In this document: piece by piece, positions 24,447 to 61,667 of the stretch
Layout: each line of letters starts with the position of its first letter
How positions within the stretch are numbered: position 1 is the stretch's first letter
Source of the DNA: a virus
IMG/VR virus record: IMGVR_UViG_3300025648_000526
Span: 1 to 64,000 of that record
DNA: 64,000 nucleotides
Direction: 5' to 3' (one strand)
The notes under the pieces: model-generated
What the model was told of the DNA's origin: nothing
Databases searched by the model: none
Seen by the model: only the letters and a program-made list of their open reading frames with translations
Position numbers and translations under genes: made by a program

Positions 24447-24478
24447 TGTAAGGTGCCTTCGGGGTCTTACATTTTTTT
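24447..24478 (+). terminator. Hairpin plus T-run at the hsp20 transcript start
   Basis: TGTAAG/CTTACA with an inner CC-TTCG-GG part (24447-24471) is followed by seven T residues (24472-24478). It looks like a terminator, but starts at the predicted +1 of the 24412 promoter. It may end regA readthrough, protect the new 5' end, or attenuate hsp20. Confidence 0.7.
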
Positions 24479-24503
24479 AACTCGCTTAATAGGAGATTTT
24501 AAC

Positions 24504-24917
24504 ATGACAGCTTTACAAGGCTATCGGCATTTATTGCCTCAAACAGTAGGATTTGACCATTTATTTTCAACACTTGATGAAATGGTGGATTTAAAGACTA
24601 CTTCATACCCACCCTACAATATCAAAAAAATTGACGAAACAAACTATAGTATAGATGTTGCGATTGCAGGCTTCAATAAAGATGAAGTCGAAATCCGTGT
24701 AGAAGGTGACAAACTTACCGTAATAGGTGAAACTATCAATGAAGACACTTCAACCTACTTACACAAGGGAATTGCTAATAGAAACTTTACACTAAACTTT
24801 ACATTATCAGATACAGTTGTTGTTGGTGATGCAGAGTTTAATAATGGTATATTATCTATTGGTTTAGAGAACGTAATACCAGATTCTAAAAAACCAAGAA
24901 CAATTACTATTAAATAA
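24504..24917 (+). CDS. Small heat-shock protein Hsp20
   Basis: A 137-residue alpha-crystallin domain protein resembling IbpA: 'FDHLFSTLDEM', 'YPPYNIKKIDETNYSIDVAIAGF' (in parts), 'EVEIRVEGDKLTVIGE', 'YLHKGIANRNFTLNF', and the conserved 'FNNGILSIGLENVIP'. It is an ATP-independent holdase; Hsp20 genes are common in T4-like marine phages. ATG 24504 follows AGGAG. It has its own composite promoter. Confidence 0.95.
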   Translation: MTALQGYRHLLPQTVGFDHLFSTLDEMVDLKTTSYPPYNIKKIDETNYSIDVAIAGFNKDEVEIRVEGDKLTVIGETINEDTSTYLHKGIANRNFTLNFTLSDTVVVGDAEFNNGILSIGLENVIPDSKKPRTITIK

Positions 24918-24922
24918 GTTTT

Positions 24923-24996
24923 TACCCTGTAGTGTAACGGTAGCATAAGAGCCTCCAAATCTCTCGGTCGCAGTTCAAATCTGTGCAGGGTAGCCA
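24923..24996 (+). tRNA. tRNA-Trp (anticodon CCA)
   Basis: The acceptor TACCCTG/CAGGGTA is fully paired and followed by G and encoded CCA (24994-24996). The D-arm has a short GTG/CAT stem. The anticodon loop CTCCAAA reads CCA. The T-arm CGCAG/CTGTG closes a TTCAAAT loop. The anticodon stem has one C-T mismatch at its loop-side pair. It lies between hsp20 and speD. Confidence 0.9.
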
Positions 24997-26757: not shown

Positions 26758-27054
26758 ATGAAATACCTTTTGATTGTTTTACTTTTAATATTATCAACAG
26801 TAGCAATGTCAGAAGAATATTTGGTGATGTATTATAATCCTCATGTTAGGATTGTTTTATCAAAAGATACTTGTTTATTTAAAGAATTAGATGGTAAGAG
26901 AGCGGCTGCTCAGAGGTCTGACGGACAGGTTCTTCAAGGTTGTTGGAATCCATCAAAAGACGGAAAACAAATCACAATTAAATGGCACAATCCAGCAGTG
27001 CCTGATGATTCATCAACATTTGAAACAGAAAGATTTATTCCTACAACAGAATAA
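26758..27054 (+). CDS. Small secreted protein
   Basis: A 98-residue protein with a clear signal peptide ('MKYLLIVLLLILSTVAMSEE', cut after about residue 18) and a small mature domain with two Cys that could form a disulfide ('DTCLFKELDG', 'LQGCWNPSKDG'). It is therefore periplasmic. No family is recognised. It converges on the last gene of the minus-strand curli block, ending one base before that gene's stop, with no terminator seen between them. Confidence 0.7.
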   Translation: MKYLLIVLLLILSTVAMSEEYLVMYYNPHVRIVLSKDTCLFKELDGKRAAAQRSDGQVLQGCWNPSKDGKQITIKWHNPAVPDDSSTFETERFIPTTE

Positions 27055-29112
27055 TTATTTTGAGGTGGCACGATAAGTGCCGTCCCAATTTGCAGGTAAT
27101 CCTTCTTCCATTCTTTCTATCATTTTAGAATAGTATTCTTTTATGGTAACATCATCATTGTTTAACATTTTTCTAGCCCAATCAATTGCTTTATCCCAAT
27201 TACCACGATAATATTCTTTTAGATATTCATTGTGCATGTAAGCAATAGTTTTGCCTACTGTATAAATTTTGACACCTTCTGTTTTACCTTTAACTGCTAT
27301 GTTGTCTAATTCAACAACGCTATAATTATCTTTAACTAATTCAGCAGTTAATGGACCAAGAATAATCTTAACGCCATAGGGTTTAGATTGTCCTTCAAGT
27401 CTACTTGATAGGTTGACTGCATCTCCGAGGCAAGTGTAATCAAAACGATAGCGGCTACCCATATTACCAACAACAACACTACCAGTATTGAGCCCAATCC
27501 CCATTCCGAACGGCGGTATGCCTTCTTTTTCAATTTCTTTATTAAATTCATCTAAATCTCCTAACATTTCTAAAGCTGTTTTTACGGCATTGATGGCATG
27601 GTCTTTATCATCAAGAGGTGCATTCCAAAAAGCCATCTGAGCATCACCAATATACTTATCTAGCGTTCCATTATTATCTAAAATCTTTTGTGTCATAGCA
27701 GTCATATATCGGTTCATGATAGAAGTTAAACCTTGAACGTCTTTACCATAGTGTTCTGATATTGTGGTGAATCCACGAACATCAGTAAACATAATAGTTA
27801 AATCTTTTGTTTCACCACCGAGTTTTAATAATTCTGGATTCTTTTGTAATTTTTCAACAAGTGCTGGTGATAGGTACGTTCCAAATTGTTTTTTGATTTG
27901 TAATTTTTGATTTAACTCACTTATAAATTTAACAGTATACGCATGAGCATAAACAAGACAAAGAGTAAGAATAGGAAAGATACAGTCCACCAAATAATTG
28001 TAATGATTAAAGGTATAATGAGAACCATAATATAAAGAAACAATAATAGTAACAATAAAGATAATAGCATATTTCCACCTCGATAATAAAATTAATAATA
28101 TAGACATCATAATTGTGAATAAAAGTTCGGCACCAGTAGCCCAATCAGGTCGTTCTATATTGACATTATTAGCTAAGGTGCCGATTACAGCAGCCTGCAC
28201 ATCTTGAGGCCATACTGAACCTATACTTGTAGGTAAAGGATTGCCTAATCCTGAAGCAGTTACTCCAACAATAACTATTCCTTTGTTAAAGTTTTTTGGT
28301 AGATTTACTGCTGAAACAGAATTTGATTTTTGTGACCAATCAACCCATATACGACCAAGTGAGTCTGTTGCAATTGGTCTAAAACTTGGTATTCGCATCT
28401 TCTCAACTCCGTTCTCATTAAGTTTGACTTGAAATGTTGAGTCACCAGACATAACCCTTAACACTTCTAAAGATACACTTGGGTAAATATTACCATTATA
28501 TCCAACGAACAAAGGTATTCTACGATTAACACCGTCTATTTCAGGTAATGTGTTTGTTATTCCAACTCCAGCAGCCGAAGATTCTAATGACGGAATGTTA
28601 GCAATAATACCTGGATAATTTAAAATAGTATTGATGTTTTCTGAACCAATAATAACAGAACCAGGTTTCTTTGCTGTATTTTTATTTGATTGTGAAGGAG
28701 AGTTTACTAAAATTACAGGATGGTCTTTGATTGTATCTTCTAATGCTTTGTCACCACCTAATCGGTCGGCTTCAGGCATCATTATATTCCATACAACTAA
28801 ACCGGCATTATGAGCATACAACTGAGCAATTAAATTGGCATATTGGTCACGTTTAAATGGCCATTGACCATAACGGTCTAAAGTGTTTTCATCAATATTA
28901 ACCGTATAGATATTATTAACGGTTTGAGTTTTGCCTGAAATGAGAGTGTCAAAATATCGTAATCGGATTGATTCGATAAAGTTAGAATTGGAAACAGCAA
29001 TCACTAACGCTAAGGTTAGTAATGCTGTCCATGGTGATAATAGATATTTCTTAAACAAGTGATAATAAAGTTTGTGTTGCTGTAACCAACCATCTATAGG
29101 CAGTTTCATCAT
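27055..29112 (-). CDS. CHASE2-domain class III adenylate/guanylate cyclase
   Basis: A 685-residue membrane enzyme. Domains: one N-terminal transmembrane helix (~28-44), an extracytoplasmic CHASE2 sensor (~45-325), three transmembrane helices (~330-410), and a cytoplasmic class III cyclase (~435-620). Cyclase residues are visible: metal Asp444 in 'DVRGFT', the second metal Asp490 in 'KYIGDAQMAFW', 'GIGLNTGSVVVGNMGS' and 'YTCLGDAVNLSSRLEG' with the transition-state Asn and Arg. Base specificity is uncertain but the layout is that of bacterial adenylate cyclases. CHASE2-cyclases are known from bacteria; here it ends a phage curli block. It overlaps the previous gene by ~60 bp and lacks a clear ribosome site. 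Confidence 0.92.
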   Translation of the reverse strand: MMKLPIDGWLQQHKLYYHLFKKYLLSPWTALLTLALVIAVSNSNFIESIRLRYFDTLISGKTQTVNNIYTVNIDENTLDRYGQWPFKRDQYANLIAQLYAHNAGLVVWNIMMPEADRLGGDKALEDTIKDHPVILVNSPSQSNKNTAKKPGSVIIGSENINTILNYPGIIANIPSLESSAAGVGITNTLPEIDGVNRRIPLFVGYNGNIYPSVSLEVLRVMSGDSTFQVKLNENGVEKMRIPSFRPIATDSLGRIWVDWSQKSNSVSAVNLPKNFNKGIVIVGVTASGLGNPLPTSIGSVWPQDVQAAVIGTLANNVNIERPDWATGAELLFTIMMSILLILLSRWKYAIIFIVTIIVSLYYGSHYTFNHYNYLVDCIFPILTLCLVYAHAYTVKFISELNQKLQIKKQFGTYLSPALVEKLQKNPELLKLGGETKDLTIMFTDVRGFTTISEHYGKDVQGLTSIMNRYMTAMTQKILDNNGTLDKYIGDAQMAFWNAPLDDKDHAINAVKTALEMLGDLDEFNKEIEKEGIPPFGMGIGLNTGSVVVGNMGSRYRFDYTCLGDAVNLSSRLEGQSKPYGVKIILGPLTAELVKDNYSVVELDNIAVKGKTEGVKIYTVGKTIAYMHNEYLKEYYRGNWDKAIDWARKMLNNDDVTIKEYYSKMIERMEEGLPANWDGTYRATSK

Positions 29113-29287
29113 CTGCTAAAGCTTGTTGATTTTTTACATCTACGATTTCTTTAACAAGAAATGAATACTCTTCGTCAGATAAATCACCTGCTTGATGTTG
29201 CTCGGTAATTTTTACCAACTCAGCAGATAATTTACCAAGAACACCTGGATGTCCTGATTTTTCTCTTAATTCTTCTAATATTTTCAT
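29051..29287 (-). CDS. 78-aa helical cytoplasmic protein
   Basis: A 78-residue helical protein ('MKILEELREKSGHPG', 'ITEQHQAGDLSDEEYSFLVKEIVD') with no signal sequence. The start is ATG 29287, which overlaps the stop of the lipoprotein gene as ATGA with GGAG just before it. Its 3' end overlaps the cyclase start. It resembles small linker proteins in operons, and may act with the cyclase. Function unknown. Confidence 0.55.
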   Translation of the reverse strand: MKILEELREKSGHPGVLGKLSAELVKITEQHQAGDLSDEEYSFLVKEIVDVKNQQALADDETAYRWLVTATQTLLSLV

Positions 29288-29640
29288 CTTTGTCTCCATG
29301 ATTCTGAAATAACTTCTACTCTAGATTGTGCAATTGTTAATGCTGATTGGCAAAATAACATACTCTTTGAATCTTTTGCTTTTGTCAGTTCTTCTTTTAA
29401 CTTATCAAAGCTTGGTGATTGTGGGTCATTTCTAAGCGCTGAATAAACTTTGATATGTTGTATTTTTGAAGAGAGGTCTGGCCAAGTTGATTTATTGGCA
29501 CAATCTAAATTGTCTACTACGATTTTAATATCTACCAATTGGTCAAACATAACAGGGTCATGTTTAAGTGGCATTATTGATGTAATAGTTGAACAAGCGG
29601 TTAATGTAAGTAATGCAATAAGTGATATAATTTTTTTCAT
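29284..29640 (-). CDS. Small lipoprotein
   Basis: A 118-residue protein with a lipoprotein signal 'MKKIISLIALLTLTACST' (lipobox LTAC, acylated Cys16) and a helical mature part containing two further Cys ('NLDCANKS', 'MLFCQSA'). It is exported and anchored in a membrane. It lies between the FecR-domain gene and the cyclase and may link outer-membrane secretion to signalling (inference). Confidence 0.75.
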   Translation of the reverse strand: MKKIISLIALLTLTACSTITSIMPLKHDPVMFDQLVDIKIVVDNLDCANKSTWPDLSSKIQHIKVYSALRNDPQSPSFDKLKEELTKAKDSKSMLFCQSALTIAQSRVEVISESWRQR

Positions 29641-29647
29641 GATTTAT

Positions 29648-30712
29648 TTAGTTGCTCTGTTGTTTAATAGTTATACTATTGGTTGTTTGGTCTTGATTTT
29701 TCAAATTTACTGTAACACCATTTTGTATGATATTTATATTATATCCTTTGTCTTTATCTATTAATACTGTAGCACTATCTTTAACCGTTCTTTGTATCAT
29801 CCAATAAGTATTTTTATCAAAAATATACACTTGATTTAAAGAGTTATAACCTACCACAAAAGTTGCTAATATCATATTATCAAGAGCATTTGTTAAATAA
29901 TTTGTGTCTAACGGATTTACATCTAATTCATTAAACCCAGCATAAGGGTCTTTAAAAACTTTTGCATCTAAAGCGTTTTGTTCTAATCCCGTAAATTCTA
30001 AAGCAGAACCTGATTTATTGATTATTTCAGCTTGTATTCTTTCAATGATTTGTTTTGGTGGTTTAACAATAAGCATATTATCAATAGATGATTCAGATAA
30101 TGCTAACAAAACAGGTTTTAATGGTTTAATTTCGGATGATTTTGTTACTGTAGCTTGAAACGCTTGGTTTAAAACTACTTTACCCATGGCTGTGCTAACT
30201 TCAATTGAACCAACTGAACCATCTGGATTTGGTAACAGAATAATAAGAGATTGTCCTATCTCATCTACAGTCATTGTGAATGCTGTACCACGAACAGCAA
30301 CTGAAGCGGTCGGAGTATTGATTGCTACATTTTTATTATTTTCGTGTGCGATATTACCAGATGCATAACGAACAGTTCCCATTGTTACATTGAGAGCTAA
30401 TTTACCTGCACCTTTTTTATTGGGGTCATAGACAAATTCGTCTATAAGAAGTTTTGAATGTTCTGTGACTTTTACTTGAGTTTTATCTTCAAATGTAATG
30501 CCTACTATTCCATTGCCTGTTTGAACAATATCATTACTATCTATATTTGATTTAGGTTTAGCCTCTATTACATCTTTATTTCTAGTAATAGAGGCTGGAC
30601 CTTTTTGTTCAGTTATAGAACCAATTACCGCCCAACTAGTGTTGGATAACAGAAACAGAAGCGTTGTTACCAGTAAGATTAACAATCGCACTATTTGGGT
30701 TGGTCGTACCAT
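29648..30712 (-). CDS. FecR-domain secreted protein
   Basis: A 354-residue protein with an N-terminal signal ('LLILLVTTLLFLLSNTSWA') and a FecR-type domain (~35-185): 'TGNGIVGITFEDKTQVKVTEH', 'NVTMGTVRYASGNI', 'NTPTASVAVRGTAFTMTVDE' and 'MGKVVLNQAFQ'. FecR domains of this stand-alone type are periplasmic and often lie beside CHASE2-cyclases in bacteria. The C-terminal ~170 residues are not recognised. The first 77 bp overlap the end of the curlin gene. Confidence 0.85.
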   Translation of the reverse strand: MVRPTQIVRLLILLVTTLLFLLSNTSWAVIGSITEQKGPASITRNKDVIEAKPKSNIDSNDIVQTGNGIVGITFEDKTQVKVTEHSKLLIDEFVYDPNKKGAGKLALNVTMGTVRYASGNIAHENNKNVAINTPTASVAVRGTAFTMTVDEIGQSLIILLPNPDGSVGSIEVSTAMGKVVLNQAFQATVTKSSEIKPLKPVLLALSESSIDNMLIVKPPKQIIERIQAEIINKSGSALEFTGLEQNALDAKVFKDPYAGFNELDVNPLDTNYLTNALDNMILATFVVGYNSLNQVYIFDKNTYWMIQRTVKDSATVLIDKDKGYNINIIQNGVTVNLKNQDQTTNSITIKQQSN

Positions 30713-31343
30713 CTTGAGTCACACTTATATTATTTGAATTACCAATATTGTTGATACTAATACTATTACCTTTGCCTGCACCTGTACCATTAGCACCTGT
30801 TTGACTTGTGTTAATAGAGTTACTATTGCCTGCAATCGATATAGTATCTGTAACATTTTTACTGTTTATTTTACTTGTGATAGAGTTATTATTTCCTACA
30901 GCAGTAATACTATAGTTATAACTTCCTGAATCTCTCAATGTACCAATATCTAATATAGAATTATTATTGCTACCTGAAAATGATAAATTTAAATTACCAT
31001 TGTCGGTACCAAAGTTTCCATAATTCAATACAACACCGTTACTATTACCATCTTGAGATATTACTCCTGTAGAACCACCACCAACAAAATTACCTGTGAT
31101 AGAGTTGTTCATACCGTTTTGTGTGATACCTAAATTAATACTGTTACCATCAATCACAAATGATGGACTACCAACATTAGTAGGATCTCCTACCGTGTTG
31201 TTAGAACCTGTTTGTGTAATTGATACTGTAGAATTATCAGCGTTAGTTTGGTCAATATAAACACTATTACCTCCACTATCGACTGCCAAAGCACTAAATG
31301 CTAATAACAAACCCATCACAAAAGTGATAAGCTTACTTTTCAT
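30636..31343 (-). CDS. Curlin-repeat amyloid subunit (CsgA/CsgB-like)
   Basis: A 235-residue protein: signal peptide ('FVMGLLLAFSALA'), then at least seven imperfect repeats of the curlin type, for example 'STVSITQTGSNNTV', 'SINLGITQNGMNNSI', 'STGVISQDGNSNG', 'NISVTQDGTTN'. The repeats carry the Q-x-G-x-x-N element of CsgA/CsgB strand-loop-strand units. Asn, Ser and Gly dominate and there is no Cys. It would be secreted through the CsgG pore encoded upstream and could form amyloid fibres. Whether it is nucleator or major subunit cannot be told; only one is present. ATG 31343 follows AAGGAG. Confidence 0.88.
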   Translation of the reverse strand: MKSKLITFVMGLLLAFSALAVDSGGNSVYIDQTNADNSTVSITQTGSNNTVGDPTNVGSPSFVIDGNSINLGITQNGMNNSITGNFVGGGSTGVISQDGNSNGVVLNYGNFGTDNGNLNLSFSGSNNNSILDIGTLRDSGSYNYSITAVGNNNSITSKINSKNVTDTISIAGNSNSINTSQTGANGTGAGKGNSISINNIGNSNNISVTQDGTTNPNSAIVNLTGNNASVSVIQH

Positions 31344-32115
31344 TCTTTTTCTCCTTAAATTGCCACATACCTTTTTTTTCACCTTGAATAATCAATTGCT
31401 CTACCGCCAGGTCTGTAGCTGCTTTTATGGCGTGTATAGAAGCCTCTGTTTGAGATATTCCTATCTCTTGTTCAAAATTTTGTGTTCCATTATCAAAAAA
31501 CTTAAATATAGCTACACCTGCTGTATAACTCAATATGGTTTTTTGAGCGTTTACTGTTAATAGCACTTCACCTGTTTGTGTGCTAATTGCTCTAATACTT
31601 ACAGTCACCACATCTTCTTGATATTGTGTGTCTGGTCCAATTCCTAACCAACGAACACCAATACCACCTGTTCTTATATTTGTATCATAACTTATAATTC
31701 CGCCTTCAATAATCATACCTGCATACAACATAGGTCTGATTCCAGAAGGATCTCTTGCTTCATCTCTTGCTGAACGAATTAGTTGTCTTTCTTTTAATAA
31801 GTTGTCTATACCAACTCGTTCTACTATTCTAAACCATTTTCCATCACCAGCATCTTCTAATGATTTTAATAATACTGTTTCACCGCCTTGTGTTACAGCT
31901 GATGATAATTTAGCAATTGTAGCAGAATCTTTTCTTTGACCAGTTTTATCAGCAAAACTATAAACAGCTACAACTACTTTACCTTTAGCAGGTTCAGGTA
32001 ATGGAGCTCTAGCCCATTTCATTGGCATAATTTCTGGTTCTTTTTTAATAACATTCATTGGCGGTGTGCAGCCAATTATTGTTATACACATAAGTGCTAT
32101 TAATATTTTTTTCAT
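31333..32115 (-). CDS. csgG: Curli secretion channel CsgG
   Basis: A 260-residue outer-membrane lipoprotein: lipobox 'ITIIGC' with Cys16, then 'VVAVYSFADKTGQRK', 'EDAGDGKWFRIVERVGIDNLLKERQLI' (in parts), 'GGIISYDTNIRTGGIGVRWLGIG', 'DTQYQEDVVTVSIRAIS' and 'KTILSYTAGVAIFKFFD', all characteristic of E. coli CsgG (277 aa). It forms the nonameric secretion pore for curlin. By eye alignment the constriction residues Tyr51, Asn55 and Phe56 of E. coli are replaced by small or other residues. It starts one base after the csgF stop, so the pair is translationally coupled. Confidence 0.96.
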   Translation of the reverse strand: MKKILIALMCITIIGCTPPMNVIKKEPEIMPMKWARAPLPEPAKGKVVVAVYSFADKTGQRKDSATIAKLSSAVTQGGETVLLKSLEDAGDGKWFRIVERVGIDNLLKERQLIRSARDEARDPSGIRPMLYAGMIIEGGIISYDTNIRTGGIGVRWLGIGPDTQYQEDVVTVSIRAISTQTGEVLLTVNAQKTILSYTAGVAIFKFFDNGTQNFEQEIGISQTEASIHAIKAATDLAVEQLIIQGEKKGMWQFKEKKNEK

Positions 32116-32116
32116 A

Positions 32117-32557
32117 TTAGAAACTTAAAGTTCCAATAGGAATACTAACTTGTGTTACATTACCATTTTGATCCTTAACAGTCATGTTAATCATGTCAGC
32201 TGTTTTAGTGTATGTAATAGTATTGCCTTCAATGGTAACAGTTCCACTATTTTGTGGATTTTCACCAAACAGATTATTAATTAATTGTGTAGATAGTTGA
32301 GCATAGACTCTGCTCTCAAAGTTAGTCAAGAACTTGGCTAATATAGTATTACCTGCAGCTGTAGCAGCATCAATTGCAGCTTGTTTTTTGGCCGCATAAA
32401 TTGCTTGTTTACGAGTGTATTCAGTATTCTCTATTGTTTGAACGTGAGAAGAGTATCCTATACCTGAAAAAGAAGGAGATTTAAATTGAAACGTCTGTTC
32501 TGCATATGCGCTACTTGACAGTATCGTCAGTATGAGAATTCTTATTGTTTTCTTCAT
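32117..32557 (-). CDS. csgF: Curli assembly factor CsgF
   Basis: A 146-residue secreted protein: signal peptide cut at 'SSSAYA/EQ', an N-terminal 'QTFQFKSPSFSGIG' that matches the CsgF segment which inserts in the CsgG pore, a helix, and the C-terminal domain 'LINNLFGENPQNSGTV', 'YTKTADMINMTVKDQ', 'QVSIPIGTLSF'. E. coli CsgF has 138 aa. CsgF caps CsgG and couples secretion to fibre nucleation. It overlaps the preceding membrane-protein gene by 47 bp. Confidence 0.92.
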   Translation of the reverse strand: MKKTIRILILTILSSSAYAEQTFQFKSPSFSGIGYSSHVQTIENTEYTRKQAIYAAKKQAAIDAATAAGNTILAKFLTNFESRVYAQLSTQLINNLFGENPQNSGTVTIEGNTITYTKTADMINMTVKDQNGNVTQVSIPIGTLSF

Positions 32558-32792
32558 CTTTAATTTCTCGCATCATTAATACTACATTAAGTTTTTGATT
32601 TAATCTAATCAAATCATTATCTAGCATTCTAATACGGTCAATCAAAGCAATCACTATCTTTTCAGTTTCATTTAATACTGGTTCTGTTTCTTCTGTTGCC
32701 CACTTCCAAACATAAAAAATAAGATAACCCATACCGCAAGCAGCGATAATAGGAAATCCATATTTACTAATTAAATCTGCTAATTCTTCCAT
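32511..32792 (-). CDS. Small inner-membrane protein, copy 2
   Basis: A 93-residue protein with one transmembrane helix ('GFPIIAACGMGYLIFYVWKWA', ~12-32, in parts) and a coiled-coil tail ('IVIALIDRIRMLDNDLIRLN'). It is a paralogue of the 33579 product (shared GFPI-x-AAC-xx-GY-x-IF). It lies between the lipase and csgF. The size and layout resemble holin-like or accessory membrane proteins; real function unknown. Confidence 0.7.
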   Translation of the reverse strand: MEELADLISKYGFPIIAACGMGYLIFYVWKWATEETEPVLNETEKIVIALIDRIRMLDNDLIRLNQKLNVVLMMREIKDEENNKNSHTDDTVK

Positions 32793-33577
32793 TAAATTTT
32801 ATCCTGTGGATGCTCAACACCTTGAGACCAATCATATAGATTTAAAACATAATGACCTATAGCATGGTTATCAAGTAAACTGAATTTTTTATTTTTAACA
32901 CCTCTGATAAAGCCACGCCATACATCTTTAGTCAATTGCCATCCACTAAAACTTCTCAAATTGCCCCAATGGTTCATGTAATACATTCCACCAAAATGTT
33001 TATAAGGCCAAACAGGAACACGAGGAACCATATCTGTATTGTTTACAAATCTAAAATGTAATACACCTGTGTTTGTAATGCCTTCAATATACTCATGTGT
33101 TCCAACTCTTGGACTTCCATAAGTAAATAATGCTTGAGCACTTGGTAAATTTTCATCTCTTTGTAGTTTATAAGCTACAATAGTTGCCATCGCTGCACCT
33201 AAACTATGACCGGTACACCAGATGGTTCTTTTCTTACCTAATTCTTTTAACATTGGTTCTAATGTTGGCCAAATATTATCTACACTATGTTTAAAACCAT
33301 AATGAACTAAACCTTTGCCTGTTGAACTTGGAACAGGATTAGCTTCTAAATCTGCCGCTAAATCTCTCCAATCAGTTGGTTGTGTGCCTCGGCAAACAAC
33401 GATTGCATCTTCATCATTAGTCAATAAATAAGCTTGACTTCCATTGCAATCAAAGAACTCACTTCTAAAACCTAACTCATCAAATTTGGGTTTTGAATCG
33501 AATGGATCCGAATATGCTAAATTGCTTAATACAGCAAATAAATGAGCTTGTTTTGGAAAAGGCATTACTTTAATCAT
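32792..33577 (-). CDS. Class 3 lipase-like alpha/beta hydrolase
   Basis: A 261-residue hydrolase with the nucleophile elbow 'CTGHSLGAAMATIVAYKL' (Ser in GHSLG), 'AIVVCRGTQPTDWRDL' near the N-terminus, Asp in 'FVNNTDMVPRVPVWP' and a C-terminal 'DNHAIGHYVLNLY' supplying the His. This is the lipase class 3 layout. No signal peptide is visible, so it acts in the cytoplasm or is released at lysis. I chose ATG 33577, one base after the preceding stop and behind AAGGA, rather than the longer frame from 33619. Confidence 0.88.
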   Translation of the reverse strand: MIKVMPFPKQAHLFAVLSNLAYSDPFDSKPKFDELGFRSEFFDCNGSQAYLLTNDEDAIVVCRGTQPTDWRDLAADLEANPVPSSTGKGLVHYGFKHSVDNIWPTLEPMLKELGKKRTIWCTGHSLGAAMATIVAYKLQRDENLPSAQALFTYGSPRVGTHEYIEGITNTGVLHFRFVNNTDMVPRVPVWPYKHFGGMYYMNHWGNLRSFSGWQLTKDVWRGFIRGVKNKKFSLLDNHAIGHYVLNLYDWSQGVEHPQDKI

Positions 33578-33578
33578 T

Positions 33579-33857
33579 TTAATCCTTTCTAGCGTCGTTT
33601 TTGCCATCTGCTCTAGCAATACGATCCAAATCAGGACGAACTTTTAAAGCGTTAGACATTAAAGTATCAATTCTAATAATATCATGATTCATGGTTTTAA
33701 CTCTATTGTCCAAAGCTATAATTATACCATTTAAGCCCTTGACTCTTGAGAGAACTCCTGCGAGGATAAACTTTACAGTTAAAAAGATGAAATAACCACC
33801 AGCACAAGCAGCGGCTATTGGAAAACCCAAATCGGCAATTAACTTAAATATATCCAT
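33579..33857 (-). CDS. Small inner-membrane protein, copy 1
   Basis: A 92-residue protein with a transmembrane helix ('GFPIAAACAGGYFIFLTVKFI', in parts) and a helical charged tail ('NHDIIRIDTLMSNALKV'). It is the first gene of the minus-strand block and a paralogue of the 32511 product. Its start lies about 46 bp after a minus-strand late promoter box. Confidence 0.7.
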   Translation of the reverse strand: MDIFKLIADLGFPIAAACAGGYFIFLTVKFILAGVLSRVKGLNGIIIALDNRVKTMNHDIIRIDTLMSNALKVRPDLDRIARADGKNDARKD

Positions 33858-33863
33858 ATTAAC

Positions 33864-33892
33864 TTGACATTCATGAATGATTATTGTATAAT
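33864..33892 (+). promoter_or_regulatory. Perfect-consensus promoter for the gp43 operon, with palindrome in the spacer
   Basis: TTGACA at 33864-33869, a 17-bp spacer and TATAAT at 33887-33892. The spacer holds the palindrome ATTCATGAAT (33869-33878), a possible operator. It drives 33927 and the DNA polymerase. Confidence 0.85.
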
Positions 33893-33902
33893 CCTTGATA
33901 AG

Positions 33903-33910
33903 TATTTATA
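33903..33910 (-). promoter_or_regulatory. T4-type late promoter TATAAATA for the curli block
   Basis: The minus strand reads TATAAATA exactly, 46 bp upstream of the first gene of the curli block (start 33857). No better minus-strand sigma70 promoter was seen in the 69-bp divergent gap. It suggests late, gp55-dependent expression of the whole block. Confidence 0.55.
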
Positions 33911-60477: not shown

Positions 60478-61059
60478 ATGTTCTTTCCTGAGTTTCTATC
60501 ATATAATTGGATATTAGGTTACATACCTACTTGGGTTCCTATAGCAATTATTTGTTTTGGTGTCTTTCTAGCTATTCTAGAAATGACTTTTGAAATGTTG
60601 CAACTTATTCCTTACGGTTATAGGTTGCCTTTAAGAATAATCACTATTGTGATTCTTGCTCACGGTATCTATATAAAAGGACGCCAAGATGCAATTGTTC
60701 ATGCTGAAGAAGAATTGAAGAAAACTGTAGCTGAACAAAAAGATGTAACTAATAAGGTACAACAAGATTTTACTAGACAACTTAATGATGTGAGAGCTAA
60801 AAATGAAGCACTTAAAAAAACTATTAATACCAAAGACGATACTATGTGTGATTTGCCTAAGTCTTTTGTCGAGTTGCACGACAGCGCTGCTAAAGGCACC
60901 GTTCCCGACACCTCCAAAAGAATTGATGGTACCTCCTCCGGAGTTGCACTCTCTACAGCAGAACAAACAGTAGTAGAAAATTATAGTTTATATAATCAAA
61001 TAGCAGAACAATTAAAAGCTTTACAATATTGGGTAGATGAACAAAGGAAATTACACTAA
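60478..61059 (+). CDS. Spanin-like membrane protein (lysis)
   Basis: A 193-residue protein: two N-terminal transmembrane helices (~14-34 and ~50-65), a periplasmic coiled coil ('EEELKKTVAEQKDVTNKVQQ'), and a C-terminal region 'LPKSFVELHDSAAKG', 'ALSTAEQTVVENYSLYNQIAEQL' like the C-terminus of Rz inner-membrane spanins. Spanins fuse inner and outer membranes in the last step of lysis. It abuts the endolysin gene by one base. Confidence 0.7.
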   Translation: MFFPEFLSYNWILGYIPTWVPIAIICFGVFLAILEMTFEMLQLIPYGYRLPLRIITIVILAHGIYIKGRQDAIVHAEEELKKTVAEQKDVTNKVQQDFTRQLNDVRAKNEALKKTINTKDDTMCDLPKSFVELHDSAAKGTVPDTSKRIDGTSSGVALSTAEQTVVENYSLYNQIAEQLKALQYWVDEQRKLH

Positions 61060-61667
61060 TGACACTTGAGCAATTAAAAAAAATACTAGTGGGAAATACT
61101 TCAGTTGATGGATGGTTTGAATCACTCAACAAATTTTTACCACAATACGGAATTAATACAAATAAAAGAATTGCAGCCTTTATTGGTGAATGTTCAGTTG
61201 AATCTGCTAATTTTACAAGAATTAAAGAGAATTTAAATTACAAAGCAGAATCATTAGTTAAAGTGTGGCCTTCACATTTTGCTACATTAGATATTGCTAA
61301 ACAATACGAACACAATCAAGAAAAGATTGCTAATCGTGCTTACGCTGGTCGTATGGGTAATGGTGACGAATCTAGTGGTGATGGTTGGAAATTTGCAGGT
61401 AAAGGTTTAATTCAAATTACAGGCAAAGTTAATTATGAAAAATTTGCTGAATCAATAGGTAAAGATATTGAAGAATTACCAGAATACTTATTGACATTTG
61501 ATGGTGCTACAGAATCGGCTTGCTGGTTTTGGAAGACACACAATTTAAATGCTTTAGCTGATACCGGTGACATTGATAAAATATCAAAAGTTATCAATGG
61601 TGGTACTTTAGGATTAGAAGAAAGACGAACAAACTATCAACATGCTTTGAATATATTAGGAGGTTAA
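61059..61667 (+). CDS. Endolysin, glycoside hydrolase family 19
   Basis: A 202-residue chitinase-like muramidase. 'RIAAFIGECSVESANFTRIKENLNYKAESL' (in parts) carries the catalytic Glu residues, with 'NRAYAGRMGNGDESSGDGWKFAGKGLIQITGK' (in parts) and 'ACWFWKTHNLN'. It degrades peptidoglycan. No signal peptide is visible, so it needs a holin. It lies between spanin-like and holin-like genes. Confidence 0.95.
   Translation: MTLEQLKKILVGNTSVDGWFESLNKFLPQYGINTNKRIAAFIGECSVESANFTRIKENLNYKAESLVKVWPSHFATLDIAKQYEHNQEKIANRAYAGRMGNGDESSGDGWKFAGKGLIQITGKVNYEKFAESIGKDIEELPEYLLTFDGATESACWFWKTHNLNALADTGDIDKISKVINGGTLGLEERRTNYQHALNILGG

Follow-up and report, generated by a model that had tools for sequence, protein, structure and literature searches.

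A CHASE2 receptor cyclase gene at the end of a phage curli export operon headed by a late-type promoter motif

The DNA analysed here, called the window, is a stretch of 64,000 nucleotides corresponding to bases 1–64000 of the 72,584-base record IMGVR_UViG_3300025648_000526, from a virus of water bacteria. It encodes T4-like proteins (portal, protease, scaffold, major head protein, clamp loader, UvsX and primase), and the closest annotated relatives of its DNA polymerase, at ~50% identity, are those of cyanophages. Amid replication genes on the plus strand lies a minus-strand block (27055–33857) of ten ORFs, transcribed in the order TMA, lipase, TMB, CsgF, CsgG, curlin, FecR, lipoprotein, 82-aa ORF and cyclase, with adjacent genes overlapping or nearly touching. 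The features of the block and the endolysin gene discussed below are as follows.

33903–33910, minus: TATAAATA, a late promoter motif of the T4 type, 46 nt ahead of TMA (motif scan)
33579–33857, minus: TMA, membrane protein of 92 aa that opens the operon (phrog_18771; its annotated phage records are the six that also have the cyclase)
32792–33619, minus: class 3 lipase (PF01764, E 7.6e-27), inserted after TMA and ahead of TMB in some phages
32511–32792, minus: TMB, 93 aa, hydrophobic N-terminal segment and charged tail, module-specific (phrog_18771; weak match to holin phrog_4898, E 1.1e-5)
32117–32557, minus: CsgF (PF10614, E 1.4e-16)
31333–32115, minus: CsgG, outer-membrane curli export pore, a lipoprotein (PF03783, E 4.1e-49)
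30636–31382, minus: curlin-repeat protein, 248 aa, probable fibre subunit (PF07012 in three stretches; repeat spacing)
29648–30712, minus: exported FecR-domain protein, 354 aa, with a curlin-like C-terminal motif (PF04773, E 5.8e-08; PupR-like model; tail)
29731–29738, minus: TATAAATA again, perhaps an internal late promoter, with the lipoprotein gene 91 nt downstream (in 3 of 3 copies with room for it)
29284–29640, minus: putative lipoprotein, 118 aa (lipobox LTAC by eye; LPAM_1 below cut-off; distribution)
29051–29299, minus: 82-aa ORF between lipoprotein and cyclase, restricted to the window and near-identical contigs
27055–29112, minus: 685-aa nucleotidyl cyclase of the CHASE2 receptor type, closing the operon (ORF with ATG; Pfam CHASE2 and Guanylate_cyc; phrog_35576, E 3.5e-249)
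28096–29013, minus: CHASE2 sensor domain, residues 34–339 (PF05226, E 2.8e-36)
27259–27810, minus: class III cyclase catalytic domain, residues 435–618 (PF00211, E 1.3e-20; alignment; solved class III relatives)
61059–61667: endolysin (phrog_181), 27 kb from the curli block

Both domains of the cyclase scored above the curated Pfam cut-offs (CHASE2: 125.9 versus 26.3 bits; Guanylate_cyc: 74.2 versus 21.9 bits), and hydropathy placed one transmembrane segment before CHASE2 and three after it (residues 23–41, 325–343, 340–358 and 373–391). As the alignment with most relatives begins only near residue 20, translation may start ~20 codons further in. By alignment, the protein has the residues that class III catalysis requires, namely the metal-binding D444 and D490 and the transition-state residues N567 and R571, confirming a preliminary description of the gene as a complete CHASE2 receptor with a class III cyclase. 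That description had pointed to a possible loss of essential residues in an alignment; none was lost in the window cyclase, and D444, K486, D490, D564 and R571 are shared by every one of the 169 phage-type proteins compared (159 distinct).

Compared with a 96% identical contig (L004), the window gene had a dN/dS of 0.09, and in the catalytic domain pN (0.002) was far below pS (0.212; pN/pS ~0.01), indicating a gene under purifying selection rather than a chance ORF. We conclude that the CHASE2-cyclase gene is real, intact, conserved and under selection. With a GC content of 32–34% the block matches the remainder of the window and thus shows no sign of recent import; recent capture, as judged by base composition, was rejected. 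That these genes are functionless cargo, passively captured in recent times or decaying, is barely credible and was already disfavoured: besides the low dN/dS, gene order is kept over many phages and the catalytic residues are intact across tens of percent of divergence. No evidence in support of this possibility was found.

Convergent with the cyclase gene is a plus-strand ORF of 98 aa (26758–27054) with a signal-type N-terminus and no PHROG match. On other contigs, stand-alone ORFs of 99–128 aa are similar to the final ~95 residues of the phage cyclase, past the catalytic core (E 7e-5 to 8e-12): L036 (15009–15395, minus), L047 (4056–4442, plus), L059 (2619–2993, plus), and also L057, L061, L063, L082 and L083. 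The three tested had no PHROG match, and the one tested had no match in annotated phages. Might these ORFs be a spare regulatory tail?

The base-recognition positions of the window cyclase are filled by K486 and T560, which we read as ATP-type on the assumption that a pair of Lys with Asp, Thr or Ser marks that type. The best matches among solved structures were the class III cyclases 6fht, 2w01, 3r5g and 1wc1, of which we take 1wc1 to be CyaC and 2w01 to be Cya2. CyaB, CyaC and Cya2 (3r5g, 1wc1 and 2w01), whose catalytic domains are the nearest solved ones by sequence, differ from the phage cyclase in having other sensor parts; at the position of K486 there is Lys in 6fht and Glu in 2w01. The lysine argues for ATP as substrate, and the window receptor probably makes cAMP. 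A cNMP-binding domain (PF00027) was found in none of 26 phage records including the window's, several of which are fragments, compared with 10 of 14 control genomes. Thus, if cAMP is the messenger, a receptor of the host would be needed.

Position 567 was Asn in all 24 bacterial proteins compared; in the phage-type proteins it was Asn in 155 of 169 and Ser in the other 14, which also carry Asp at the base-recognition site. These Ser-type proteins, with a single catalytic clade on several sensor types (see below), would fit a cyclase that works as a receptor scaffold or yields a different nucleotide product; synthesis of cAMP would then not be its task in every phage. We consider this very unlikely, as the window protein has the canonical Asn, both metal aspartates, Lys and Arg are kept in every phage-type protein, and the catalytic domain has a pN/pS close to zero.

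Trees were built by quick searches with SH-aLRT support only, from a partly random subset (69 rows from 198), and contig L094 was left out of the sensor, catalytic and constraint trees. The sensor tree united all 52 phage rows in one clade apart from the 15 bacterial rows (SH-aLRT 100). The catalytic tree alone did not group window-type and marine-type domains, but one phage clade was compatible with the data (p-AU 0.52), so that the two types may have either a single or a separate origin. The catalytic halves of the 14 Ser-type proteins formed one clade (SH-aLRT 100; 99 without the diagnostic columns). Their sensor halves did not: those of Melnitz and L089 fell into the marine clade (100), and the others were scattered within the window's clade, which, by sample names, is presumably mainly freshwater. 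Six changes of the Ser label were needed on the sensor tree, at least four of them forced by well-supported branches, and a single clade of Ser-type sensor halves was rejected (p-AU 3e-89). Taken together, the two trees indicate that phages exchange catalytic domains between CHASE2 receptors, the Ser-bearing domain being one that was swapped.

The cyclase gene is accompanied by curli (type VIII secretion, T8SS) genes. The curlin repeat of the 248-aa protein scored 24.0 bits (cut-off 20.7, PF07012), and the 118-aa putative lipoprotein occupies the place of the second curlin gene of most relatives. CsgE, CsgC and CsgD had no Pfam match among the ten block ORFs. Among 77 phage-type cyclases with at least 6 kb upstream, CsgG lay on the same strand within 6 kb in 63 and apart in 14, and TMA, TMB, CsgF, CsgG, curlin and FecR all lay within 9 kb in 50 (in these gene-order counts, as in those of promoter motifs and FecR tails below, duplicate loci were kept in). 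On gene content and order, the cyclase can be placed firmly as the last gene of a phage-owned curli operon.

The module as such has been published. According to the accessible part of PMC9599517 (2022), a T8SS module with FecR and an adenylate cyclase is present in pelagiphages, and curli modules occur across ocean viromes, so that the window gene is not a first; phage CsgF and CsgG were reported earlier still (PMC7029224 and PMC9004378, in their accessible parts). In the main text of PMC9599517, as far as accessible, no word beginning with 'CHASE' occurs. The copies of HTVC008M and Melnitz, which we compared, have the same order as the window (small proteins, CsgF, CsgG, curlin, FecR, in some cases a second curlin, cyclase). 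In contrast to the pelagiphage module, that of the window has a lipase between TMA and TMB, a lipoprotein and the 82-aa ORF in place of the second curlin, and a position on the strand opposite to its neighbours.

The preliminary description had called such a receptor very unusual on a phage, and this did not hold up. At least 592 of 598 IMG/VR stretches matched by window-derived patterns, and at least 585 of 600 matched by HTVC008M-derived patterns, encode a relative of the cyclase, and the cultured phages HTVC008M and Melnitz are themselves carriers. Identity to the window cyclase was 37–38% for HTVC008M and Melnitz and 58–96% for the best 80 of the at least 592 contigs. In the annotated phage collection eight records matched the cyclase (HTVC008M two, Melnitz four, Acinetobacter two); CsgG was found in the same six HTVC008M and Melnitz records and in a 1,499-base Salmonella phage fragment. 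The two Acinetobacter 'phage' matches (H7 and H8) concern the cyclase domain only; H7 is surrounded by bacterial housekeeping genes and is probably misfiled DNA. The stretch of CAKLQH020000011.1 (L084), deposited as Acinetobacter phage MD-2021a, has isc, hscA and mfd genes and is probably bacterial.

Exactly one such cyclase was encoded by each of 23 whole phage records searched, and CsgG by 17 of them; most of the six records without CsgG are fragments in which the cyclase lies close to the end of a contig. In five records of 264–344 kb, cyclase and CsgG occur together with a gene matching the major head protein of the T4-like type, at a weak E of 1.1e-14 in one of them; the module thus extends to probable jumbo phages. 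A T4-like virus genome containing curli genes has been described (PMC7198788, accessible part).

A hint at when the operon may be expressed comes from the motif TATAAATA, which we take to be the T4 late promoter. It occurs six times in the window, fewer than the expected mean of 11.6. Besides the two sites in the block, it is found before the scaffold gene (5664), a phrog_455 gene (51656) and the Hsp20 gene (24435), and at the end of the portal gene (3173). The form NATAAATR was present within 150 nt before TMA in 77 of 107 copies (strict TATAAATA in 43), and HTVC008M has NATAAATR and lacks TATAAATA. The other genes had it less often (TMB 1/97, CsgG 0/90, FecR 12/100, curlin 12/177, CsgF 28/88, cyclase 20/162), with a background of 5.6% in random 203-base pieces from the same loci. 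From the position of this motif we infer that the operon is expressed late in infection. The preliminary description had suggested that a whole sensing module was captured. The linkage of FecR and cyclase agrees with this, but the unit is the entire curli operon starting at the late-promoter motif and not the FecR–cyclase pair.

Elsewhere in the window, the Hsp20 gene (24453–24917) has a tRNA-Trp after it (24923–24996). A perfect sigma-70 promoter match on the plus strand (33864–33892; TTGACA, 17, TATAAT) stands beside the module's late-promoter motif but faces the other way, towards the replication genes.

TMA and TMB are paralogous (33% identity in the window) and have median lengths of 93 aa (108 copies) and 94 aa (98 copies), with a hydrophobic N-terminal segment followed by a polar tail; by hydropathy, window TMB stays below transmembrane thresholds. 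At 80 TMA loci, TMB followed in 76, and the cyclase, CsgF or CsgG lay in the flank in at least 71, the cyclase being on the opposite strand in 43. Both proteins are hence part of the module, also at loci where its genes are separated. Immediately upstream of CsgF, one or two histidine kinases are described in the accessible part of PMC9599517. By position these would be TMA and TMB, which at ~93 aa cannot hold a kinase. No kinase domain was found in the ~93-aa genes before CsgF of the window, HTVC008M and Melnitz, and the best His column comprised 27 of 98 TMB and 76 of 108 TMA sequences.

The two small proteins also bear on the possibility that the module times lysis. CsgG and CsgF would then breach the outer membrane, TMA and TMB would act like holins, the lipase would weaken membranes, and the CHASE2-cyclase would sense periplasmic events such as superinfection and set the time of lysis. 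A late-promoter motif before TMA is consistent with this, as are the hydrophobic segment and charged tail of TMA and TMB, the weak holin match of TMB and the lipase adjoining TMA in 18 viral loci of our lipase scan; in Melnitz, CsgGF has been suggested to act in lysis (PMC9004378, accessible part). We nevertheless regard lysis timing as unlikely. The phage has its own endolysin 27 kb away, and a curlin subunit and CsgF would be superfluous for a breach. Unlike a general holin, TMA and TMB track the curli module: neither was found in annotated phages other than the six HTVC008M and Melnitz records. A Pfam search with six TMA and TMB proteins returned nothing above cut-off, holin families included.

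The FecR protein may be a partner of the sensor. Its FecR domain scored 33.5 bits (cut-off 24), and a model of its core (residues 58–214; pLDDT 81.8) aligned with PupR (6ovk_R; Z 15.7, rmsd 2.5, 135 residues), pointing to the signalling-domain fold of the FecR/PupR cell-surface regulators. Unlike PupR, the phage protein is exported and soluble: no anti-sigma segment was found, only an N-terminal signal-type segment preceding the domain, and it ends in a 73-residue beta tail with a curlin-like motif. The hxhxQ end of this tail was present in 89 of 99 complete phage FecR proteins and 95 of 176 curlins, and elsewhere in 1 of 91 CsgG, 14 of 87 CsgF, 1 of 171 cyclases and none of 205 TMA/TMB matches. 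The last two Gln of the tail were 21–23 residues apart in 67 of 87 proteins (curlin modes: 11 and 22–23), and Gln351 was invariant in 78 of 78. A curlin-tail profile matched 28 of 99 FecR tails at E≤1, versus 10 of 495 shuffled ones, and the isolated tail was predicted to form a 7-strand sheet. A curlin fold did not emerge: there was no PDB match at E≤0.001 (best VIA Z 4.3), and the Pfam curlin repeat was detected in none of 78 phage FecR proteins. We therefore speak of a curlin-like tail rather than of a curlin domain.

That FecR shares the block with the cyclase and that the two genes are also neighbours in bacteria had both been claimed in the preliminary description, and both claims stood: FecR was found near the CHASE2-cyclase in 8 of 25 bacterial neighbourhoods, which comprise five clearly bacterial loci and 20 from genomes, one place (L086/L227) being counted twice. 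The bacterial CHASE2 adenylate cyclases, from Alphaproteobacteria, share domain order and catalytic residues with the phage protein; they differ in the sensor clade and in their surroundings, CsgG, CsgF or curlin being found in none of the 25 neighbourhoods. The pairing of cyclase and curli genes therefore looks like a phage trait.

A CHASE2 cyclase was encoded by 130 of 385 genomes of the class at E≤1e-100 and by 6 of 398 genomes of a phylum sample at E≤1e-150, with the same best score of 581 bits, whereas phage-type copies at five sites within MAG bins reached 727–912 bits. In L085, L089 and L093, TMA/TMB are present along with further genes of the module, and the cyclase of L087 falls among those of marine phages; we therefore take these to be phage contigs binned into MAGs. 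The bins of these four phage-looking contigs are assigned to Rhodobacteraceae, Flavobacteriaceae and Pirellulales. A scan of genome contigs for a bacterial source of the full module gave 14 loci, these four contigs and the five clearly bacterial loci among them, and no such source was seen. An alphaproteobacterial origin of the T8SS module has been argued (PMC9599517), sibling capture has been proposed and freshwater SAR11 phages have been stated to be without the operon (PMC7029224), in each case in the accessible part of the source.

A curlin-like tail was seen by eye in none of eight bacterial FecR proteins near CHASE2-cyclases. Such bacterial proteins are long (839–1722 aa, two cut by a contig end; L230, L239, L241, L244 and L245) and perhaps adhesin-like, and FecR with CHASE2 may be a general sensor for surface proteins. 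In the Burkholderia BiofilmReg biofilm operon, FecR likewise adjoins a CHASE2 receptor (a FecR-LysM protein, a CHASE2 histidine kinase and a response regulator; PMC5192318, accessible part). Its output, however, is a kinase and not a cyclase, and the same part of that source reports no curli genes and describes CHASE2 ligands as not known.

The preliminary description saw in the receptor a means for the phage to make a cyclic nucleotide in the host in answer to an outside signal. Taken as hijacking of host signalling alone, an outside cue would raise host cAMP and so reprogram host transcription. The complete receptor with its intact cyclase would suit this, as would the need for a host target that follows from the failure to find a phage-encoded cNMP receptor in the 26 records. 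We consider hijacking alone clearly unlikely, because the cyclase rides in the curli operon in 63 of 77 copies, a pairing seen in none of the 25 bacterial neighbourhoods, and its late-type promoter motif points to a phase in which there is little to be gained from reprogramming the host.

We favour a different reading, held tentatively and at somewhat less than an even chance: the cyclase would be the sensory end of a late-expressed curli-export operon, reading the envelope or export together with FecR and making cAMP that a receptor of the host would detect. The operon would be switched on late in infection and would supply a CsgG/CsgF outer-membrane pore, an exported curlin fibre, exported FecR, two small membrane proteins, a lipase and the inner-membrane cyclase. 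CHASE2 would face the periplasm and, probably with FecR, whose curlin-repeat-like tail could touch fibre subunits, read the state of the envelope or the export of the fibre. The cytoplasmic domain would then make cAMP, acting through a host receptor, and the fibre may coat or clump infected cells before lysis. Counted in favour of this reading are the domains and catalytic residues, the linkage to CsgG and the other curli genes, the late-type motif, the low dN/dS, the failure to find PF00027 in the 26 phage records, the curlin-like FecR tail and the pairing of FecR with CHASE2 in the Burkholderia operon. The class of the protein, its operon, its conservation, its catalytic residues and the late-promoter motif are observed; the signal, the contact of FecR and CHASE2, the identity of the product as cAMP and the purpose that the fibre serves are what this reading would add. 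Melnitz-infected cells in culture were described without clumping (PMC9004378, accessible part), which speaks against that purpose. Late cAMP signalling directed at the host would be odd if host transcription is already shut down. Also counted against this reading are the weakness of the FecR tail as a curlin (Pfam 0/78; 28/99 by profile; no clear PDB match of the predicted sheet), the 14 of 77 cyclases apart from CsgG and the 6 of 23 records in which CsgG was not found.

A bolder version, which we regard as decidedly doubtful, is an amyloid-export machine with a feedback sensor. Here the curlin-like repeat of FecR would catch periplasmic subunits and, via CHASE2, turn on the cyclase, whereby the cell would report a finished coat and adjust export or lysis; cyclase domains would be traded to retune the output.

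Several elements were not found in the open-access literature, as far as its text was accessible: the late-promoter motif at the operon start, TMA and TMB as module members at the place of the 'histidine kinases', the swapping of Ser-type cyclases, the curlin-like end of FecR, the jumbo-phage carriers and the absence of a cNMP-binding protein from 26 phage records. The late motif, the missing phage cAMP receptor, TMA and TMB, and the swapped domains make the role of the module testable, raising the questions of when the module is made, which host protein reads the signal and whether the fibre precedes lysis.
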